Shown here one piece after another: positions 27,336 to 34,152 of a stretch of DNA of 64,000 nucleotides. The first letter of the stretch is position 1; the number at the start of each line of letters is the position of its first letter. This stretch comes from Sphingomonadales bacterium Ga0077559 (GTDB taxonomy: Bacteria > Pseudomonadota > Alphaproteobacteria > Sphingomonadales > Sphingomonadaceae). Made by a program: the position numbers and the translations under genes. The notes beneath the pieces are model-generated. The model had not been told where the DNA came from. It was given only the letters and a program-made list of their open reading frames with translations, and ran no database searches. Location: NCBI GenBank assembly GCA_001464315.1, contig LNFK01000031.1:1-64000 (forward strand), written 5' to 3'.

Positions 27336-29474
27336 ATGCATGCGCGCATTGTCATTGTAGACGATCGATCGACCAACCTGCGCGTTTACGCGCAATATGT
27401 GGCGATGATGGGTCCGGAATTTTCCGCCAAATGTTTCCACAGCGCAGTGGAGGCTCTCAAATGGTTGGAAAATGAACCCGCCGACCTCCTGATTGTCGAT
27501 TATCGAATGCCGGAAATGAACGGCGCGGCGTTTATCAGCAAAATACGCGCACGGACTGTGGGCGCGCATATACCGGCAATCATCATCACCGCACGCCAAG
27601 ACCGAGAGTGCCGGATTAGCGCACTTGACGCAGGCGCGACAGATTTCCTGCAAAGCCCGGTGTCGCACATCGAGTTTCGTGACCGCGCGATCCTGCTGCT
27701 GGGACAGCATCAAAAGCAGCAAGCGTTGAAGCAATCCCTTGCCTCGCCACACAGTCCGCAAAATGAAGACGGGCATGAACGCGAAGGCAAGTCGATGCTT
27801 GAACAGATTATCGACACGACGCCGATCTTGATCAACGCAACCGACCGAAATGGAAAATTTCTTTTTCTGAATTCCTATCAAGCTGCACTTTTTGGACGTG
27901 ATCCCGAGCAGTTGATTGGGCGTTCCATAGCCGAAATAATGGCCCCCGAGTTGGTTGAACGCGAAGTACGACGGAACAATGTCATTTTGGAAACCGGTAT
28001 TTCCATACCAAACTATGAAGAAAAATTCGTCAGCGAAGGAATCGAGCTAACATTCCATTGCAACAAATCGCCTCTGCTCAACAAAGATAATCAGACGATT
28101 GGGATATTGACCACCGGTCTGGATATCACCGCGCGGAAGTTCGCCGAAGAACATCGCGCGCATCTGGCGCTACACGACATGCTCACCGGCCTGCCTAACC
28201 GCACCTTGCTCTCCGAGCGGATGCGGGTCGCCATTGAAAACTGCAATACTACCGGAAAAAATGCCGCGTTGCTGCTTCTGGATCTTGACCGGTTCAAGGT
28301 CATAAACGACACTCGTGGGCATCAAGCAGGCGACATTCTGCTCCGCCAGGTTGCCGAGCGTCTTAGCGCCGTTCTCGATGCAGATGGATTTGCTGCGCGG
28401 ATCGGCGGCGACGAATTTGCTATCATCCTTACCAATCTCGACAATCAGGCCGATGTAGCGACCAGCTGCAGTCAAATCCTGAGCCGGATCGGCGAACCCT
28501 ATTCGATAGGCGGCGTAGAACAGCTTATCGGCGCAAGCATCGGCATTGCGCTTATTCCGGAAGACGGAACCTCGGCGAACGAACTCCTACGTCTGGCTGA
28601 CTTGGCGATGTATGAGGCGAAGTCTTCGGGACGAAACCGTTTCTGCTTTTTTTCACCACGCATGAACCAAGTCGCGCAGCTGAATGCCGGCGTCGAAAGC
28701 GACCTTCGAGAAGCGTTGAATCACGACCAGCTGTTTCTTGAATATCAGCCTATCGTGGATATCGCGACGGGTAATTATGTCGGTCTCGAAGCGCTATTAA
28801 GATGGCAACATCCGGTTCGAGGGCGGCTCGTCCCCATAGATTTTATTCGGGTCGCAAATGATTCCGGGCTCATTGGCCGCATCGGACAATGGGTTGTGGG
28901 CAAAGCATGTGCACAAATTGCCGAATGCGAAGCTGACGGCATCGTGCTCCCCCATATCGCAGTCAATGTTTCGCCAAAACAGTTCCAGTACAGCAATATG
29001 TGCACTGACATTCTGGAGCAGATCGCCCGATATGATATTGCGCCTGGTAAGCTAGCGATCGAAATCACCGAGGAGTTGCTGCTCGACCACAATCAGGAAG
29101 TGCACGAGCAACTTGAACGATTGCGCGATGGCGGCGTGGGTATTTCTATCGATGATTTCGGCACAGGCTATTCATCGTTGCAATATCTGCGAGACTTGCC
29201 GGCCACCCGCCTGAAGATTGACCAAACATTCATTTCGCGGATAGAAAATTCATCGGCTGACCGCGCAATCATCTCTACGATTGCGCATCTCGCGCACGCG
29301 CTTGACATGCGCGTAGTTGCGGAAGGCGTGGAGACCGAAGCCCAATTTGCCTTATTGCGTGCATCGGGCTGTGACGAGGTTCAAGGCTTTCTTTTAGGGC
29401 GGCCGATGTCGGTGACTGATTTGCGCCGACTGTTTGCCAACGGCGGCGCACGTTTCGAAATCGGTGCCAGATGA
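27336..29474 (+). CDS. REC-PAS-GGDEF-EAL response regulator for cyclic di-GMP turnover
   Basis: This 712-residue protein has a receiver domain (about 1-125; D9-D10, acceptor D55 in IVDYRMPEMNG, T85). A PAS domain spans about 152-270, a GGDEF domain 275-440 (intact GGDEF at 357-361) and an EAL domain 450-712 (EAL at 485-487, DDFGTGYSS). Both enzyme motifs look intact, so it could make or break c-di-GMP. The receiver resembles that of RpfG, but the conserved lysine is Ser107 (LQSPV instead of the usual TKP). Its stop overlaps the hybrid kinase start (ATGA). With kinase and RpfF-like synthase it forms a DSF-type locus in which GGDEF-EAL replaces the HD-GYP output of xanthomonads. Confidence 0.88.
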   Translation: MHARIVIVDDRSTNLRVYAQYVAMMGPEFSAKCFHSAVEALKWLENEPADLLIVDYRMPEMNGAAFISKIRARTVGAHIPAIIITARQDRECRISALDAGATDFLQSPVSHIEFRDRAILLLGQHQKQQALKQSLASPHSPQNEDGHEREGKSMLEQIIDTTPILINATDRNGKFLFLNSYQAALFGRDPEQLIGRSIAEIMAPELVEREVRRNNVILETGISIPNYEEKFVSEGIELTFHCNKSPLLNKDNQTIGILTTGLDITARKFAEEHRAHLALHDMLTGLPNRTLLSERMRVAIENCNTTGKNAALLLLDLDRFKVINDTRGHQAGDILLRQVAERLSAVLDADGFAARIGGDEFAIILTNLDNQADVATSCSQILSRIGEPYSIGGVEQLIGASIGIALIPEDGTSANELLRLADLAMYEAKSSGRNRFCFFSPRMNQVAQLNAGVESDLREALNHDQLFLEYQPIVDIATGNYVGLEALLRWQHPVRGRLVPIDFIRVANDSGLIGRIGQWVVGKACAQIAECEADGIVLPHIAVNVSPKQFQYSNMCTDILEQIARYDIAPGKLAIEITEELLLDHNQEVHEQLERLRDGGVGISIDDFGTGYSSLQYLRDLPATRLKIDQTFISRIENSSADRAIISTIAHLAHALDMRVVAEGVETEAQFALLRASGCDEVQGFLLGRPMSVTDLRRLFANGGARFEIGAR

Positions 29475-31972
29475 TTACGTATCTGAAACGGCTTCGCGGG
29501 GACCTTAGCCCGGAACAGGAAATCTTACGAAATCGCCTCGTGATGGGTAGCGTGTCAGGCTTCGGCTGTTACTTTTTTGCCTTTGATGCGGTTATCTTTT
29601 CAGCATTTTTTGCATATCTATCGTTCAACGCGTGCCTTTACGCGATGCAAAAGCGGGAATTGTGGAAGCCCGAAGAAAGATGGTTTGCGGCCATTATTCT
29701 CGACGTCTTGATGGCCTTTGCGGTGATGCTGCGCGAGCCTGAGCACATGTCAATTTTTTACCCACTCGTCTTGTGGATGATTCTGGGAAATGGTTTCAGA
29801 TACGGCGTAAAATGGTTGTTTGTCGCAGCATCTTTGTCGGCCGTCACCTTTGGCATCGTCGTAATGACGACTGCCTATTGGCAGCAGAATTTTTCTTTGG
29901 GCATGGCCCTCGCTCTGGCCCTGGTTGTCATTCCGGCTTATTGCTCCACGCTCATCCGTAAAATATCCCACGCTAAAGAGCAGGCTGAAATGGCGAGCAA
30001 GGCAAAAAGCTACTTTTTGGCCAGCGTCAGCCATGAACTGCGCACGCCGCTTAACGCAATCATCGGTTACGGCAACCATCTCCGCCAGTCCGACATGCCG
30101 CGAGGGCAAAAAGAAATGGTTGAAGCAAGCGTATTGGCGGGCGAGCATCTCCTCAACCTGATTGAACAGCTCATCGAGGTAGCAAAAACCGGCACGGGTT
30201 CGGCGCAGATCAAGACGTCTTCTTTCAGGCCAACCGAATTGATCAGCGAAATTCGCCATATCATGCAGGCACCCGTGCAGGATAAGGGTCTTTCCTTCTA
30301 TCTCCAAGCTGAGCCGCTGAGCGACCGGATGATTGATGGCCCGACCGATGTTCTTCGCAACATATTGTTGAACCTGGTCGGAAATGCAGTAAAATTTACC
30401 GAGGCCGGCAATATCTCGATCAGCAGCGGATTTTGCACACACAAAGGCGAGGAACATATCTGGTTTGAAGTGAGCGATACTGGAATCGGTATCGCGGAAA
30501 CAGCAATTGAGCGAATATTCCAGCCATTCCAGCAAGCTGATGACACCGTGCTGAACCGGTTCGGCGGAACCGGGCTTGGACTTGCGATATGCAAACAGTT
30601 GGTTGAGCAGGTCAACGGGCGAATCTTGGCTGAGAGCAAGCTTGGCCAAGGAAGCAAATTCCGGATCGAAGTTCCGGTAAAATCACTCGAACAATTACCC
30701 GATGATGCAAACGCGTCAGCCGATGTCGTAAACATAATTTCATTCGGCGACTTGCCACCCACACTATTGGCAAGCGCTCAATCGCAAGAAAATGTCATGT
30801 TGCGTCATATTCGTTGCGCCAGTGGCTGCGACCTTGTTCAGGCATTACATGGCATTGATCTGGATAAATACCAGATTGCGCTCATTTCGGAAGAGATGGC
30901 AAAAACTTTGGAGCCCGATGACGCAATATGGGGAATCTTTGCTGAGTCTGCCATCGCGCCAGTTTTGGTTTCGCAGGGCGGTGAAATAGAAGTTGGGGAA
31001 ATCGCGCTGCGTGCGGCATTCGCCTCGATTTTGCCTCCTTCGGCCAATTTTGCAGAGTTGCGCAGTGCGATCCGGATCGGATGCTCGTTTTCAAAGCATC
31101 AAAAATCGCATGTAGACGAGGAGGTTCGCGCAGAGCCGCTTTATTGCTCCAGAAAAATTTTGGTGGCCGACGATAACCGGACCAACCGCAATGTTTTAGG
31201 CGCAATACTGGGCGCGGTGGGACATGTGGTAAAAATGGTTACCGACGGCGATGAAGCGCTTGATGCCCTTGAAAACGAGGAATTTGACGTCCTGCTGCTC
31301 GACATCAATATGCCACGGTTGAACGGTATTGATACGTGCACGATGTGGCGGCAGATTGAAGGCGGACGTCGCCATCTGCCGATTGTCGGGGTGACAGCTG
31401 ATGCTACGGCAGAAACTGAACAACGGTGTAAAATTGCTGGTATGGACCTTCGTATAACCAAACCCGTTGATGCAAAGCTACTGCTGTCAACAATCGAACA
31501 GCTGTGCGGAACTGCCGCACTTGAAGACAAAGCTGTCAACAGCGCTACTGATCCTTTGGATGTTGTCGTACCAATTGTCCGACCGCAGTCTTCGATGACG
31601 GCGGCTATCGACCATGCCCAATTCCAATATCTCCAAAGCATCGGAGACGACGAATTTGTTCGTGGAATGGTCGAAGGCTTTTTGCAAGACGCTGAAGAAA
31701 CACTTGCTCCTCTCCAACAGGCTGTGAACCAGCGTAAAGTTCAAGACTTCCGGTTCTATGCGCACGCAATAAAAAGTTCATGCAACAATATGGGCGCTAA
31801 AAATCTTGCGGAACTATGCGGCCATCTGGAAAAAATCACCGAAGCAGATTTTGATGATCATCGCTTTATCTACCTTGATAAAATCGAGACTGAACTCGCA
31901 AAAGTCATCGCGGCCCTTGATATCCTAGCTGATCGAAGTGTGGATCAGTTGCCCAAACAATCTGTCAGGTAA
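29471..31972 (+). CDS. rpfC: RpfC-like hybrid sensor histidine kinase with REC and Hpt
   Basis: This 833-residue inner-membrane kinase starts with a short cytoplasmic or juxtamembrane stretch (MITYLKRLRGDLSPEQEILR) like that of Xanthomonas RpfC. About five membrane helices lie at 25-160. HisKA carries H188 in SVSHELRTPLN, and HATPase has N305, DTGIG at 336-340 and GGTGLGLAI at 365. A loosely conserved region spans 420-550. The receiver has D567-D568, acceptor D611 in LLDINMPRLNG and K664, and the C-terminal Hpt has H765 (AHAIKSS). The order matches RpfC, the DSF sensor. The likely phospho-target is the adjacent REC-PAS-GGDEF-EAL protein. It converges with rpfF, overlapping it by 8 nt. Confidence 0.85.
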   Translation: MITYLKRLRGDLSPEQEILRNRLVMGSVSGFGCYFFAFDAVIFSAFFAYLSFNACLYAMQKRELWKPEERWFAAIILDVLMAFAVMLREPEHMSIFYPLVLWMILGNGFRYGVKWLFVAASLSAVTFGIVVMTTAYWQQNFSLGMALALALVVIPAYCSTLIRKISHAKEQAEMASKAKSYFLASVSHELRTPLNAIIGYGNHLRQSDMPRGQKEMVEASVLAGEHLLNLIEQLIEVAKTGTGSAQIKTSSFRPTELISEIRHIMQAPVQDKGLSFYLQAEPLSDRMIDGPTDVLRNILLNLVGNAVKFTEAGNISISSGFCTHKGEEHIWFEVSDTGIGIAETAIERIFQPFQQADDTVLNRFGGTGLGLAICKQLVEQVNGRILAESKLGQGSKFRIEVPVKSLEQLPDDANASADVVNIISFGDLPPTLLASAQSQENVMLRHIRCASGCDLVQALHGIDLDKYQIALISEEMAKTLEPDDAIWGIFAESAIAPVLVSQGGEIEVGEIALRAAFASILPPSANFAELRSAIRIGCSFSKHQKSHVDEEVRAEPLYCSRKILVADDNRTNRNVLGAILGAVGHVVKMVTDGDEALDALENEEFDVLLLDINMPRLNGIDTCTMWRQIEGGRRHLPIVGVTADATAETEQRCKIAGMDLRITKPVDAKLLLSTIEQLCGTAALEDKAVNSATDPLDVVVPIVRPQSSMTAAIDHAQFQYLQSIGDDEFVRGMVEGFLQDAEETLAPLQQAVNQRKVQDFRFYAHAIKSSCNNMGAKNLAELCGHLEKITEADFDDHRFIYLDKIETELAKVIAALDILADRSVDQLPKQSVR

Positions 31973-32903
31973 CAGCTTTCAAGCTACGCTGGATCCGACG
32001 TTCCTGTGCATCAGCTAGGCGCTCCATCTTCCGGACATCTACTTCGGTCAAAGTCATAGCAGTCTCTGCCCAGATATTGGTTATCCGCAGCAATTCTTCC
32101 AGCTCGACCGGGCTTGAAACCCGGCGGGCCAAATAAACCGCGCGCTCCGCTGCGAAGCGAGAGCGTCCGCGTTGACAATAGTCGACAATCGCTGCTTCGC
32201 CCTGCCCGTCTTCAACCAGGATGTCCACGATACCGAGTTCGTACAGCTCTTCTGCGGTGTGGATTTTGCCATCGAGGATAAAGCTTTCTGCCATTTTGCG
32301 ACCGACCCTGCGAATGAGGAAACTATATGCGCCCATGCCCGGGAACAGATTGAATATTATTTCCGGCAAACCCATCCGTGCGCTGCGTTCTGCAACAAGT
32401 ATATCGAAAGCCAAAGCATGTTCAAACCCACCGCCCAAGGCATCGCCTTGCACCAGCGCCATTGTGATTATCGGCGCGCCAAATCCGTGCGAATTGGCAT
32501 ATTGCATGCGGACGCATGTTTCAGCGTAGCTGCGCATGGCCGCTAGATCACGCGTACGAATACATTCGGCAAAATGCCGCAAATCGCCGCCAAGATTATA
32601 GATCCCAGGCGTCTTTGATCCGCATACAAAATAGCGCAGATCTTCGGGACCGCCATTAGCCGGCATCGCATAGTTATTCGCGATCCAATCCTGAACCTGC
32701 TGTATTTCTGCACCAAGACTGTAGGTGTAACTCGGCCTGCCGGTCTGGTTCATGAAACACCAGAAAATCTGGTCTTCCTGATCATGCCGGACCGAGATTT
32801 CACGAAAATTTCGCCCAGTAATGGGCACGCCAAGCACACGTTCCTGTAACGCAAGAGTCGTTTTTTCAACAGCGCCATCAATGACGCGGGAGTGGAATGC
32901 CAT
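31965..32903 (-). CDS. rpfF: RpfF-like DSF synthase (crotonase fold)
   Basis: RpfF makes cis-2-unsaturated fatty acid signals (DSF family) from acyl-ACP by combined dehydratase and thioesterase action. The 312-residue product has the crotonase core and the RpfF-specific blocks YNLGGDLRHFAECI, HGFGAPIITMALVQGDALGGGFE (shown in parts) and MGLPEIIFNLFPGMGAYSF. Both catalytic glutamates of the family are present, E161 (GGGFEHAL) and E181 (GLPEIIF). GGGGG lies 7 nt before the ATG. Lying beside the RpfC-like kinase makes ordinary enoyl-CoA hydratase unlikely. Two palindromes at 33016-33046 lie about 115-145 nt upstream. Confidence 0.87.
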   Translation of the reverse strand: MAFHSRVIDGAVEKTTLALQERVLGVPITGRNFREISVRHDQEDQIFWCFMNQTGRPSYTYSLGAEIQQVQDWIANNYAMPANGGPEDLRYFVCGSKTPGIYNLGGDLRHFAECIRTRDLAAMRSYAETCVRMQYANSHGFGAPIITMALVQGDALGGGFEHALAFDILVAERSARMGLPEIIFNLFPGMGAYSFLIRRVGRKMAESFILDGKIHTAEELYELGIVDILVEDGQGEAAIVDYCQRGRSRFAAERAVYLARRVSSPVELEELLRITNIWAETAMTLTEVDVRKMERLADAQERRIQRSLKAVT

Positions 32904-33051: not shown

Positions 33052-33774
33052 TCAGGGCTGTTGAAGAGCAACGATTATCGGCGTCGTAAGCAACGGTACC
33101 AGCTGCAACGCATCCTTGAACAGCCTGCGGGCCGTTGAATCACCAACAACTACAACGTCATTTGCGAACACTTCGGGATCGCTGTAAATACCACGACGTA
33201 TTGATTTAAGATTATAAAGCGCTGCCATTTTTTGACCGTTTACGGTCCGGAAAATAACAACGTCGTCCAATTTGGCGAACTCGGCAGTGCCTTTTGCGAC
33301 AGCGACCGCGCGCATCAGCGTCATTTTTCCAATTACGGGGTATAATCCTGGCTCGCGAACCTGCCCATCGATCGTGATGACCTGGCTGACGGTTTCTTTC
33401 AAATTTACCGTGACTTGCGGATCACGCACATATTGCCCTCGCAACCGGCTCTCGATTTCTTCCTCAAGCTCTCCCGGTGTTTTACCCGCTGCTTCCAGGA
33501 TTCCTGCAAGCGGAAACGAAATGCGGCCGCCCGCGTCGGTTTGCACTTCCTGCTTGCTCAATTCCTGAATTCCGAAAACATCGATCGTCAGTTTGTCGAA
33601 TGGTCCAATCAAATAGGGACGGTTCTGTTCAAACAAGTCAAGCCTTGTAGGTTCGGGAAGTCCGTCGCTCTCAACGATCTTTACGTCCGATACACTGCCA
33701 GCGCCGCCCAGTTGCGAACCGCCGCACGAGGCCAGCGCAGTTGACAAAAACAGAAGCAAGAATTGGTTGCGCAT
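33052..33774 (-). CDS. polysaccharide export lipoprotein (Wza/GelD-like)
   Basis: This 240-residue outer-membrane export protein has a lipobox (STALAS-C17). A Poly_export domain at about 45-125 contains YLIGPFDKLTIDVFGI, GGRISFPLAG and YVRDPQVTVNL, followed by one SLBB-like domain (ITIDGQVREPGLYPVIGKMTLMRAV). It is shorter than E. coli Wza and lacks the C-terminal helix of the barrel, as in many sphingomonad homologues. I prefer the ATG at 33774, preceded by GGAAG, over the upstream ATG at 33786, which has no ribosome site. Position beside the DSF locus suggests matrix export under DSF control, which is inference. Confidence 0.85.
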   Translation of the reverse strand: MRNQFLLLFLSTALASCGGSQLGGAGSVSDVKIVESDGLPEPTRLDLFEQNRPYLIGPFDKLTIDVFGIQELSKQEVQTDAGGRISFPLAGILEAAGKTPGELEEEIESRLRGQYVRDPQVTVNLKETVSQVITIDGQVREPGLYPVIGKMTLMRAVAVAKGTAEFAKLDDVVIFRTVNGQKMAALYNLKSIRRGIYSDPEVFANDVVVVGDSTARRLFKDALQLVPLLTTPIIVALQQP

Positions 33775-34152
33775 AGGTCTTCCCATTATCGATTGTGAAA
33801 GCCTGCTAGCGAATGGGCGCAGGTAACGCCACCCCTTTTGATGACGGATAAAACGTTTGAAATGGCGGAGAGATAGGCCGCCAAACTATCATCCCGAAAC
33901 GTCACGACGCATCCCCATAATCATCCGGTGATTACCCCTTTTGGATGATGATCGCCCGAAGTCACACCTTGCATTTTTCCGTTTAAATACATTGATGCGG
34001 TAGCATTTTGCTTGGGAAAAGCCCGTTTTTGTGGCGTTTTTTTACAACCGGCGGACATACCTACGGATAATTGCCAATTTATGTAACGCAATTATGTAAC
34101 GCTATGTTTGCAAACCATTGCGTGACACTATCAGCCCTTGGGTCGGCTGGTC

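Follow-up and report, generated by a model that had tools for sequence, protein, structure and literature searches.

The window analysed here is a 64,000-nucleotide stretch from Sphingomonadales bacterium Ga0077559 (contig LNFK01000031.1), and its positions 27336-32903 hold a locus of three genes for an RpfF-family synthase, an RpfC-like hybrid kinase and an output protein with REC, PAS, GGDEF and EAL domains. We consider this to be probably a cell-cell signalling locus of the diffusible signal factor (DSF) type, with a phosphorelay leading to the PAS-GGDEF-EAL output. RpfF (31965-32903) would make a cis-2-unsaturated fatty acid, which the RpfC-like kinase would sense through its membrane input domain. 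Phosphate would then pass from H188 to D611 and H765 of the kinase and on to D55 of the output receiver. Phosphorylation would shift the balance of the output, whose GGDEF and EAL sites are both intact, most likely towards breakdown of cyclic di-GMP (c-di-GMP) by EAL. The PAS domain between receiver and enzyme may act as a further input, and the output may then respond only when phosphate is joined by a second cue. The three open reading frames and their domains are as follows.

27336..29474, forward strand: output gene, 712 amino acids (aa), REC-PAS-GGDEF-EAL (open reading frame, Pfam)
27348-27683, forward strand: output REC, residues 5-116 (Pfam)
27795-28139, forward strand: output PAS, residues 154-268 (Pfam)
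28167-28640, forward strand: output GGDEF, residues 278-435, motif 357-361 intact (Pfam)
28701-29405, forward strand: output EAL, residues 456-690, motif 485-487 intact (Pfam)
29471..31972, forward strand: RpfC-like hybrid kinase gene, 833 aa (open reading frame, Pfam)
29471-29974, forward strand: kinase membrane input domain, about 165 aa (hydropathy, profile)
29471..29536, forward strand: first 22 residues of the kinase, counterpart of the DSF-binding sensor in Xanthomonas RpfC (alignment)
30002-30196, forward strand: kinase HisKA, residues 178-242, H188 (Pfam)
30347-30682, forward strand: kinase HATPase_c, residues 293-404 (Pfam)
about 30690-31150, forward strand: kinase degenerate receiver, about 150 aa (profile comparison)
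31157-31495, forward strand: kinase receiver (REC), residues 563-675, D611 (Pfam)
31667-31837, forward strand: kinase Hpt, residues 733-789, H765 (Pfam)
31965..32903, reverse strand: RpfF-family DSF synthase gene, 312 aa, E161 and E181 kept (open reading frame, NCBIfam, PDB sequence matches, tree, fold search)

Synthase, kinase and output regulator

The synthase belongs to the RpfF family, and the two catalytic glutamates ascribed to it by an earlier, sequence-only reading of the window are present. It contains ECH_1 at residues 126-244 (Pfam), reaches 353.7 bits against the NCBIfam model PRK08788 (cut-off 177), and its four top PDB sequence matches (7zq7, 3m6m, 5fus and 6dgn) are named RpfF or DfsA. 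The glutamates are E161 and E181, which we take to be the RpfF catalytic pair. By comparing 118 RpfF-like loci (compared loci carry L-numbers and compared genomes G-numbers as handles), the first position was Glu in all 118, and the second was Glu in 116 and Asp in 2. The RpfF tree holds 85 of these loci, namely 33 of the 58 with the window's combination of synthase, kinase and output (the trio), 10 of the 18 without a partner and all loci of the other classes; two enoyl-CoA hydratases serve as outgroup, a third candidate having been removed for length. The RpfF-like proteins split from the hydratases with support 100 on a branch of 3.9, for which the tool warned that long branches meet. The window protein lies within a 61-row alphaproteobacterial group (support 94, not starred), outside which stand the RpfF proteins of the loci bearing an FI domain (L164-L168). 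A structure model of residues 33-304 (predicted local distance difference test score, pLDDT, 93.4) recovered RpfF-type chains (3m6m, 3m6n, 7zq7, 5fus and 6dgn) at ranks 1-12 of a fold search, with template modelling (TM) scores of 0.90-0.92; the first hydratase came at rank 13, and no hydratase exceeded 0.80 among the 50 PDB matches listed. An ordinary crotonase was considered for this protein and rejected, since neither the tree nor the fold search places it among the enoyl-CoA hydratases, a placement that would have refuted the sequence-only reading by its own criterion.

The same tree contains a second alphaproteobacterial RpfF lineage of eight rows (support 99; L097, L098, L099, L094, L095 and L159, with L161 and L162), of which the first three are Parasphingopyxis, a Sphingomonadales metagenome-assembled genome (MAG) and Sphingomonas paucimobilis. 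It adjoins GGDEF-EAL proteins with 4-6 hydrophobic segments ahead of GGDEF and has neither an RpfC-like kinase nor an FI domain; for L161 and L162 no partner was found in the locus. RpfF of the alphaproteobacterial type also occurs in records labelled otherwise, a Terriglobia MAG (L033) and a Burkholderiales MAG (L031), by contamination or transfer.

The kinase has the architecture of RpfC: its membrane input domain is homologous to that of RpfC, and HisKA, receiver and Hpt come after it. Its gene is convergent with that of the synthase, their 3' ends sharing 8 bases, and the convergence of RpfF on a TM-HisKA-REC-Hpt kinase beside a REC-PAS-GGDEF-EAL gene, as first read from the sequence, is borne out by open reading frames and Pfam domains. 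The further claim, that kinase and output are translationally coupled, is upheld as to the junction, where inspection found the output stop and the kinase start overlapping as ATGA; such an overlap suggests coupling but does not prove it. The relay residues are kept across the compared kinases: the HisKA and Hpt histidines are each present in 87 of 87, and the receiver aspartate in 86 of 87, with one gap. A crude hydropathy count gave four helices in the membrane input domain of the window kinase and five in a relative with 71% identity (L101). The sensor-domain profile was built on loci L021-L112 and the window, with L147-L152 left out, and it also matches the kinases beside HD-GYP genes in L147-L152, of which L147-L149 look like Xanthomonadaceae, judging by how their family scores for RpfF.

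In the trio kinases a degenerate receiver separates the kinase core from the receiver. Its profile matched two gammaproteobacterial receivers at 94% and the kinases' own at 87%; the negative control gave no match. A gap of the size for such a domain occurs in 4 of 9 kinases with HD-GYP partners, the other five having a short gap. Stand-alone genes for the sensor membrane domain (one or two, 276-453 aa), like RpfH of Xanthomonas, lie between kinase and output in L041 and L043, both Inquilinus, and in L067, labelled Mycobacterium sp. KBS0706, a label that may be wrong. In L146 (G018:C18) a second kinase has a membrane domain of the RpfC-like type and, on visual inspection, what resembles a receiver at its C-terminus; no RpfF lies in the 14-kilobase (kb) stretch around it.

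The output begins with a receiver, after which Pfam finds PAS-GGDEF-EAL in the place that HD-GYP takes in RpfG. The window protein has the phosphoacceptor D55, Ser107 at the usual place of the KP-motif lysine, and no I-site Arg. All 61 aligned outputs have the acid pair, Asp55 and Thr85. Depending on the position, 58-61 of them conserve the GGDEF motif and 60-61 the EAL residues examined, and none has the I-site Arg. We favour breakdown dominated by EAL because of the analogy with RpfG and RpfR, and because the top two NCBIfam models, DibA and PRK10060, are phosphodiesterases, although both score below cut-off. The genome has 10 EAL places, so the output would be one of several such enzymes. 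The 50 matches listed for a structure search with REC-PAS contained generic receivers and PAS domains.

All rpf output receivers, from both HD-GYP and PAS-GGDEF-EAL regulators, form a 46-row group that excludes both the true controls and the receivers of the kinases themselves (Shimodaira-Hasegawa-like approximate likelihood ratio test, SH-aLRT, 90, not starred). The tree has 70 rows and 115 columns and includes 20 of 58 trio receivers; of its 21 rows entered as unrelated, L051 is really an output, and L021 and L058 come from RpfC-like kinases. The window receiver groups with those of RpfG, and therefore the two kinds of regulator have the receiver in common and differ in the effector. An FI profile built on L164-L168 matched only those five among all open reading frames of the loci and none of the trio outputs; the FI domain of L166 matches PDB 6dga/6dgn at 2.5e-32. 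Because of this receiver grouping and the missing FI domain, the locus reads as an RpfF/RpfC system with its HD-GYP effector exchanged and not as an RpfR fusion, though the exchange may have run in either direction. The output was accordingly rejected as an RpfR for want of an FI domain, and the earlier idea that the locus joins the logics of RpfG and RpfR finds no support; what is left of its RpfR side is a weak resemblance of the PAS domain, from profile searches with few controls.

That resemblance is the ground for an RpfR-like alternative, with the fatty acid as a direct ligand of PAS and a minor or different role for kinase and receiver. The best PAS-profile matches outside the REC-PAS group are PAS-GGDEF-EAL proteins beside RpfF, namely L153, which has no FI domain (E-value 7.5e-9), and the FI-bearing RpfR-type L164-L168 (3.2e-7 to 7e-4), and a PAS profile comparison gives 97.9%. 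However, the weaker of these matches overlap control PAS domains (6e-4 to 0.4, few controls), and a profile match says nothing on ligand binding. Moreover, the FI domain is missing, the relay residues are kept and the receiver groups with RpfG's, so we give the RpfR-like alternative a slim chance.

The REC-PAS stem is also found with other endings. At 10 of the 118 loci, one genome being counted twice (L060, L061, L065, L068, L080, L111, L112 and others), it ends in a histidine kinase (HK) instead of GGDEF-EAL; these REC-PAS-HK loci belong to Rhodospirillales, unplaced Alphaproteobacteria and two genomes of the window's order. A bare REC-PAS output of 253-286 aa, in which no enzyme domain was found, occurs in L048, L049 and L057 (Crenalkalicoccus, Roseomonas).

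Distribution, loss and neighbouring genes

The locus type is not unique to the window genome and recurs across several alphaproteobacterial orders. The trio was found at 58 of the 118 loci and at 44 of 80 loci in named genomes. These 80 are the best of at least 576 confirmed, picked by similarity to the window protein, so the proportion is biased to close kin. To assign domains in the loci, a sequence motif served for HD-GYP, and profiles seeded with the window's domains served for the rest. Two same-genome pairs, L083/L157 (trio) and L081/L112 (REC-PAS-HK), reduce the distinct loci to 57 and 9, respectively, and counts are quoted as computed, with the duplicates. By NCBI order the 44 trio loci comprise Hyphomicrobiales (18), Acetobacterales (12), Sphingomonadales (8) and Rhodospirillales (2), with one each in Rhodobacterales, Burkholderiales, Mycobacteriales and unplaced. 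The remaining named loci with a partner are 8 REC-PAS-HK, 6 with a kinase and another partner, 5 with GGDEF-EAL and no kinase, and 3 with HD-GYP. L154, L155, L156 and L171 (family f43) have RpfF and an RpfC-like kinase, with no receiver output recognised adjacent.

Synthase and sensor also occur together in whole genomes. Among 289 sampled Alphaproteobacteria, the window's own genome included, RpfF was found in 19, the sensor domain in 18 and REC-PAS, which may here carry GGDEF-EAL or a kinase, in 20; RpfF and the sensor domain coincide in 17, and all 17 have REC-PAS. In 41 relatives, the sensor domain is present in exactly the 13 with full-length RpfF (E-value at most 1.5e-77; next match 1.8e-15), and both are absent in 28. 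The distance matrices of the 58 loci correlate at 0.56-0.74, the maximum in 500 permutations being 0.18.

The window genus is probably Sphingorhabdus, because the RpfF of a Sphingorhabdus MAG is 85% identical to that of the window. Of 25 genomes of the genus, 11 have full-length RpfF with the sensor domain and 14 have neither. G008 and G013 have the output gene at the same site next to thyA, and after it comes an ATGA-coupled gene for a REC-Hpt protein of 314 or 354 aa. Compared by eye with the window, this is the kinase gene after in-frame loss of the kinase core and of the greater part of the membrane domain; G013 keeps a remnant of the phosphoacceptor-histidine box from which the histidine itself is missing. 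Between these two genomes the output has a ratio of nonsynonymous to synonymous substitution (dN/dS) of 0.11 and REC-Hpt one of 0.28, values at which both genes appear to be maintained; only this pair is used, dS being saturated or undefined for several others. The thyA-E1 tree points to two losses of RpfF, one in the clade G008/G013/G014/G023 and the other in a clade with nine members, or else to a single loss with regain in G024, and the placement of G022 is unresolved. Synthase and sensor-kinase parts thus vanish together and the relay tail outlasts them, which is what one would predict for an input domain that responds to the product of the synthase.

One neighbouring gene deserves mention.

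33052..33786, reverse strand: Poly_export/SLBB polysaccharide export gene (Pfam)

It shares the strand of rpfF and lies upstream of it at a distance of 148 bases. Of 19 compared loci, four (L101-L104) have the gene in their stretch, again close upstream of rpfF and in the same orientation. Co-transcription with rpfF is possible, and the position hints that the signal may be tied to polysaccharide export.

Evidence against the proposed circuit

Several observations weigh against this DSF-type circuit. The window RpfF reaches 220.5 bits against the NCBIfam RpfF equivalog, below its cut-off of 550, and is therefore named here a family member and not an equivalog; the cut-off is narrow, being reached by 3 of 398 sampled Proteobacteria. 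Within the alphaproteobacterial sample, RpfF occurs without the sensor domain in 2 of 19 genomes (G127, G068), the sensor domain without RpfF in 1 of 18 (G472, 85% complete), and REC-PAS without RpfF in 3 of 20. The output is kept without RpfF in G008, G013 and G022, in the last of which the contig stops at the output gene. Shared ancestry alone may lie behind the correlated distances and the joint presence. Furthermore, no partner was found at 14 of the 80 named loci; the side where a partner usually lies is short in 6 of them and spans 9.9 kb or more in 8, and three have more than 9.7 kb on both sides. Such loci would be expected if RpfF were a metabolic crotonase linked by accident to a two-component system for another cue. 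Against accidental linkage stand the identical trio across orders, the joint presence and absence of sensor domain and RpfF in the 41 relatives, and the joint loss of synthase and sensor with the relay tail retained, and we find it scarcely probable, even less so than the RpfR-like alternative.

The sensor residues raise a different doubt. Arg15, Asp17, Ser18, Glu19 and Gln22 of the 22-residue sensor are required for DSF sensing by RpfC of Xanthomonas campestris pv. campestris (PMC5391125). Only the Glu19 equivalent of these five, as aligned, is kept in the window kinase; the protein is therefore named RpfC-like, and it may or may not sense DSF. The Gln22 equivalent is present in 8 of 8 aligned HD-GYP partners (L151, with a gap at the sensor column, was left out) and in all 10 REC-PAS-HK partners, whereas the 58 trio kinases lack it without exception. 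With other partners it is found in 7 of 10 kinases, the three Roseomonas-type ones having Met. Position 22 of the trio kinases is Met, Ile or Leu in 46 of 46 outside the genus and Ile, Val or Thr in the 12 of the genus, which also lack the equivalents of Arg15 (12/12) and Ser18 (11/12). These changes could mean that the circuit is the same and the ligand another: synthase and sensor of the REC-PAS-GGDEF-EAL lineage, chiefly in this genus, would have shifted to a fatty acid of other chain length, branching or oxidation. Yet the trio class makes up about one tree branch, so there may have been a single inherited change or drift, and the mutagenesis in X. campestris was made in another background. 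We judge a changed ligand unlikely, with some weight nonetheless.

The output receiver is unusual as well. Where the output is not HD-GYP, Ser, Thr or Ala takes the place of the KP-motif lysine in every receiver, 78 in all (58 trio, 10 REC-PAS-HK and 10 others). HD-GYP outputs have Lys in 8 of 9 and Arg in one, and other receivers at the same loci have Lys in 21 of 22 with one gap, although these 22 include four from RpfC-like kinases (L021, L058, L143, L144) and one likely duplicate pair. Phosphorylation may therefore act unusually or weakly on these outputs. We hypothesize, tentatively and with well under even confidence, a distinct DSF-type branch across Alphaproteobacteria, in which the PAS-gated, lysine-less regulator would be a two-input gate for phosphate and a PAS ligand, synthase and sensor would have moved off the known DSF and Burkholderia DSF (BDSF), and the REC-PAS stem would accept GGDEF-EAL, a histidine kinase or no enzyme. 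The matched differences in effector, receiver lysine and sensor residue 22 make the rewiring of a quorum-sensing phosphorelay directly testable, and the two genomes minus synthase, sensor and kinase core, with the relay tail retained, are natural test cases for it. Lysine-less receivers likewise allow a direct test of a receiver working without the conserved lysine.

Comparison with known DSF systems

Two core DSF pathways, RpfC/RpfG and RpfR, have been described (PMC4504480), along with the rpf cluster of X. campestris pv. campestris (PMC3749722) and rpfFCG-type systems in acidophiles (PMC8357829, PMC9040811). The open-access literature searched yielded neither a REC-PAS-GGDEF-EAL output nor a characterised Sphingomonadales DSF system, in agreement with the sequence-only reading, which knew of no example in this order; absence elsewhere is not implied. 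The same literature gave no mention of lysine loss in non-HD-GYP outputs, of Gln22 loss in trio kinases or of the joint loss of synthase, sensor and kinase core.

RpfF-RpfC-RpfG of X. campestris resembles the window locus in synthase family, convergent order, the membrane input/HisKA/receiver/Hpt kinase and the group of the regulator's receiver (PMC4504480, PMC3749722, PMC5391125). On the other hand, the window effector is PAS-GGDEF-EAL and not HD-GYP, the KP lysine of the receiver is gone, sensor residue 22 is not Gln, and the kinase has a degenerate receiver that is absent from the Xanthomonadaceae-like L147-L149; rpfB is not a neighbour of rpfF in the window, no genome-wide search for it having been made. 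The Leptospirillum rpfFCG systems likewise have RpfF, RpfC and a receiver output beyond the xanthomonads, and DSF-family compounds have been sought in their cultures, but the output is HD-GYP, the genes are co-directional and the L. ferriphilum kinase is split in two (PMC8357829). RpfF-RpfR of Burkholderia and Cronobacter shares the RpfF family and a convergently coded PAS-GGDEF-EAL enzyme. However, RpfR has the RpfF-binding FI domain, no receiver and no need of a kinase (PMC4504480), whereas the window output has a receiver and no FI. The locus appears as a third layout beside the two core pathways, spread across several alphaproteobacterial orders.

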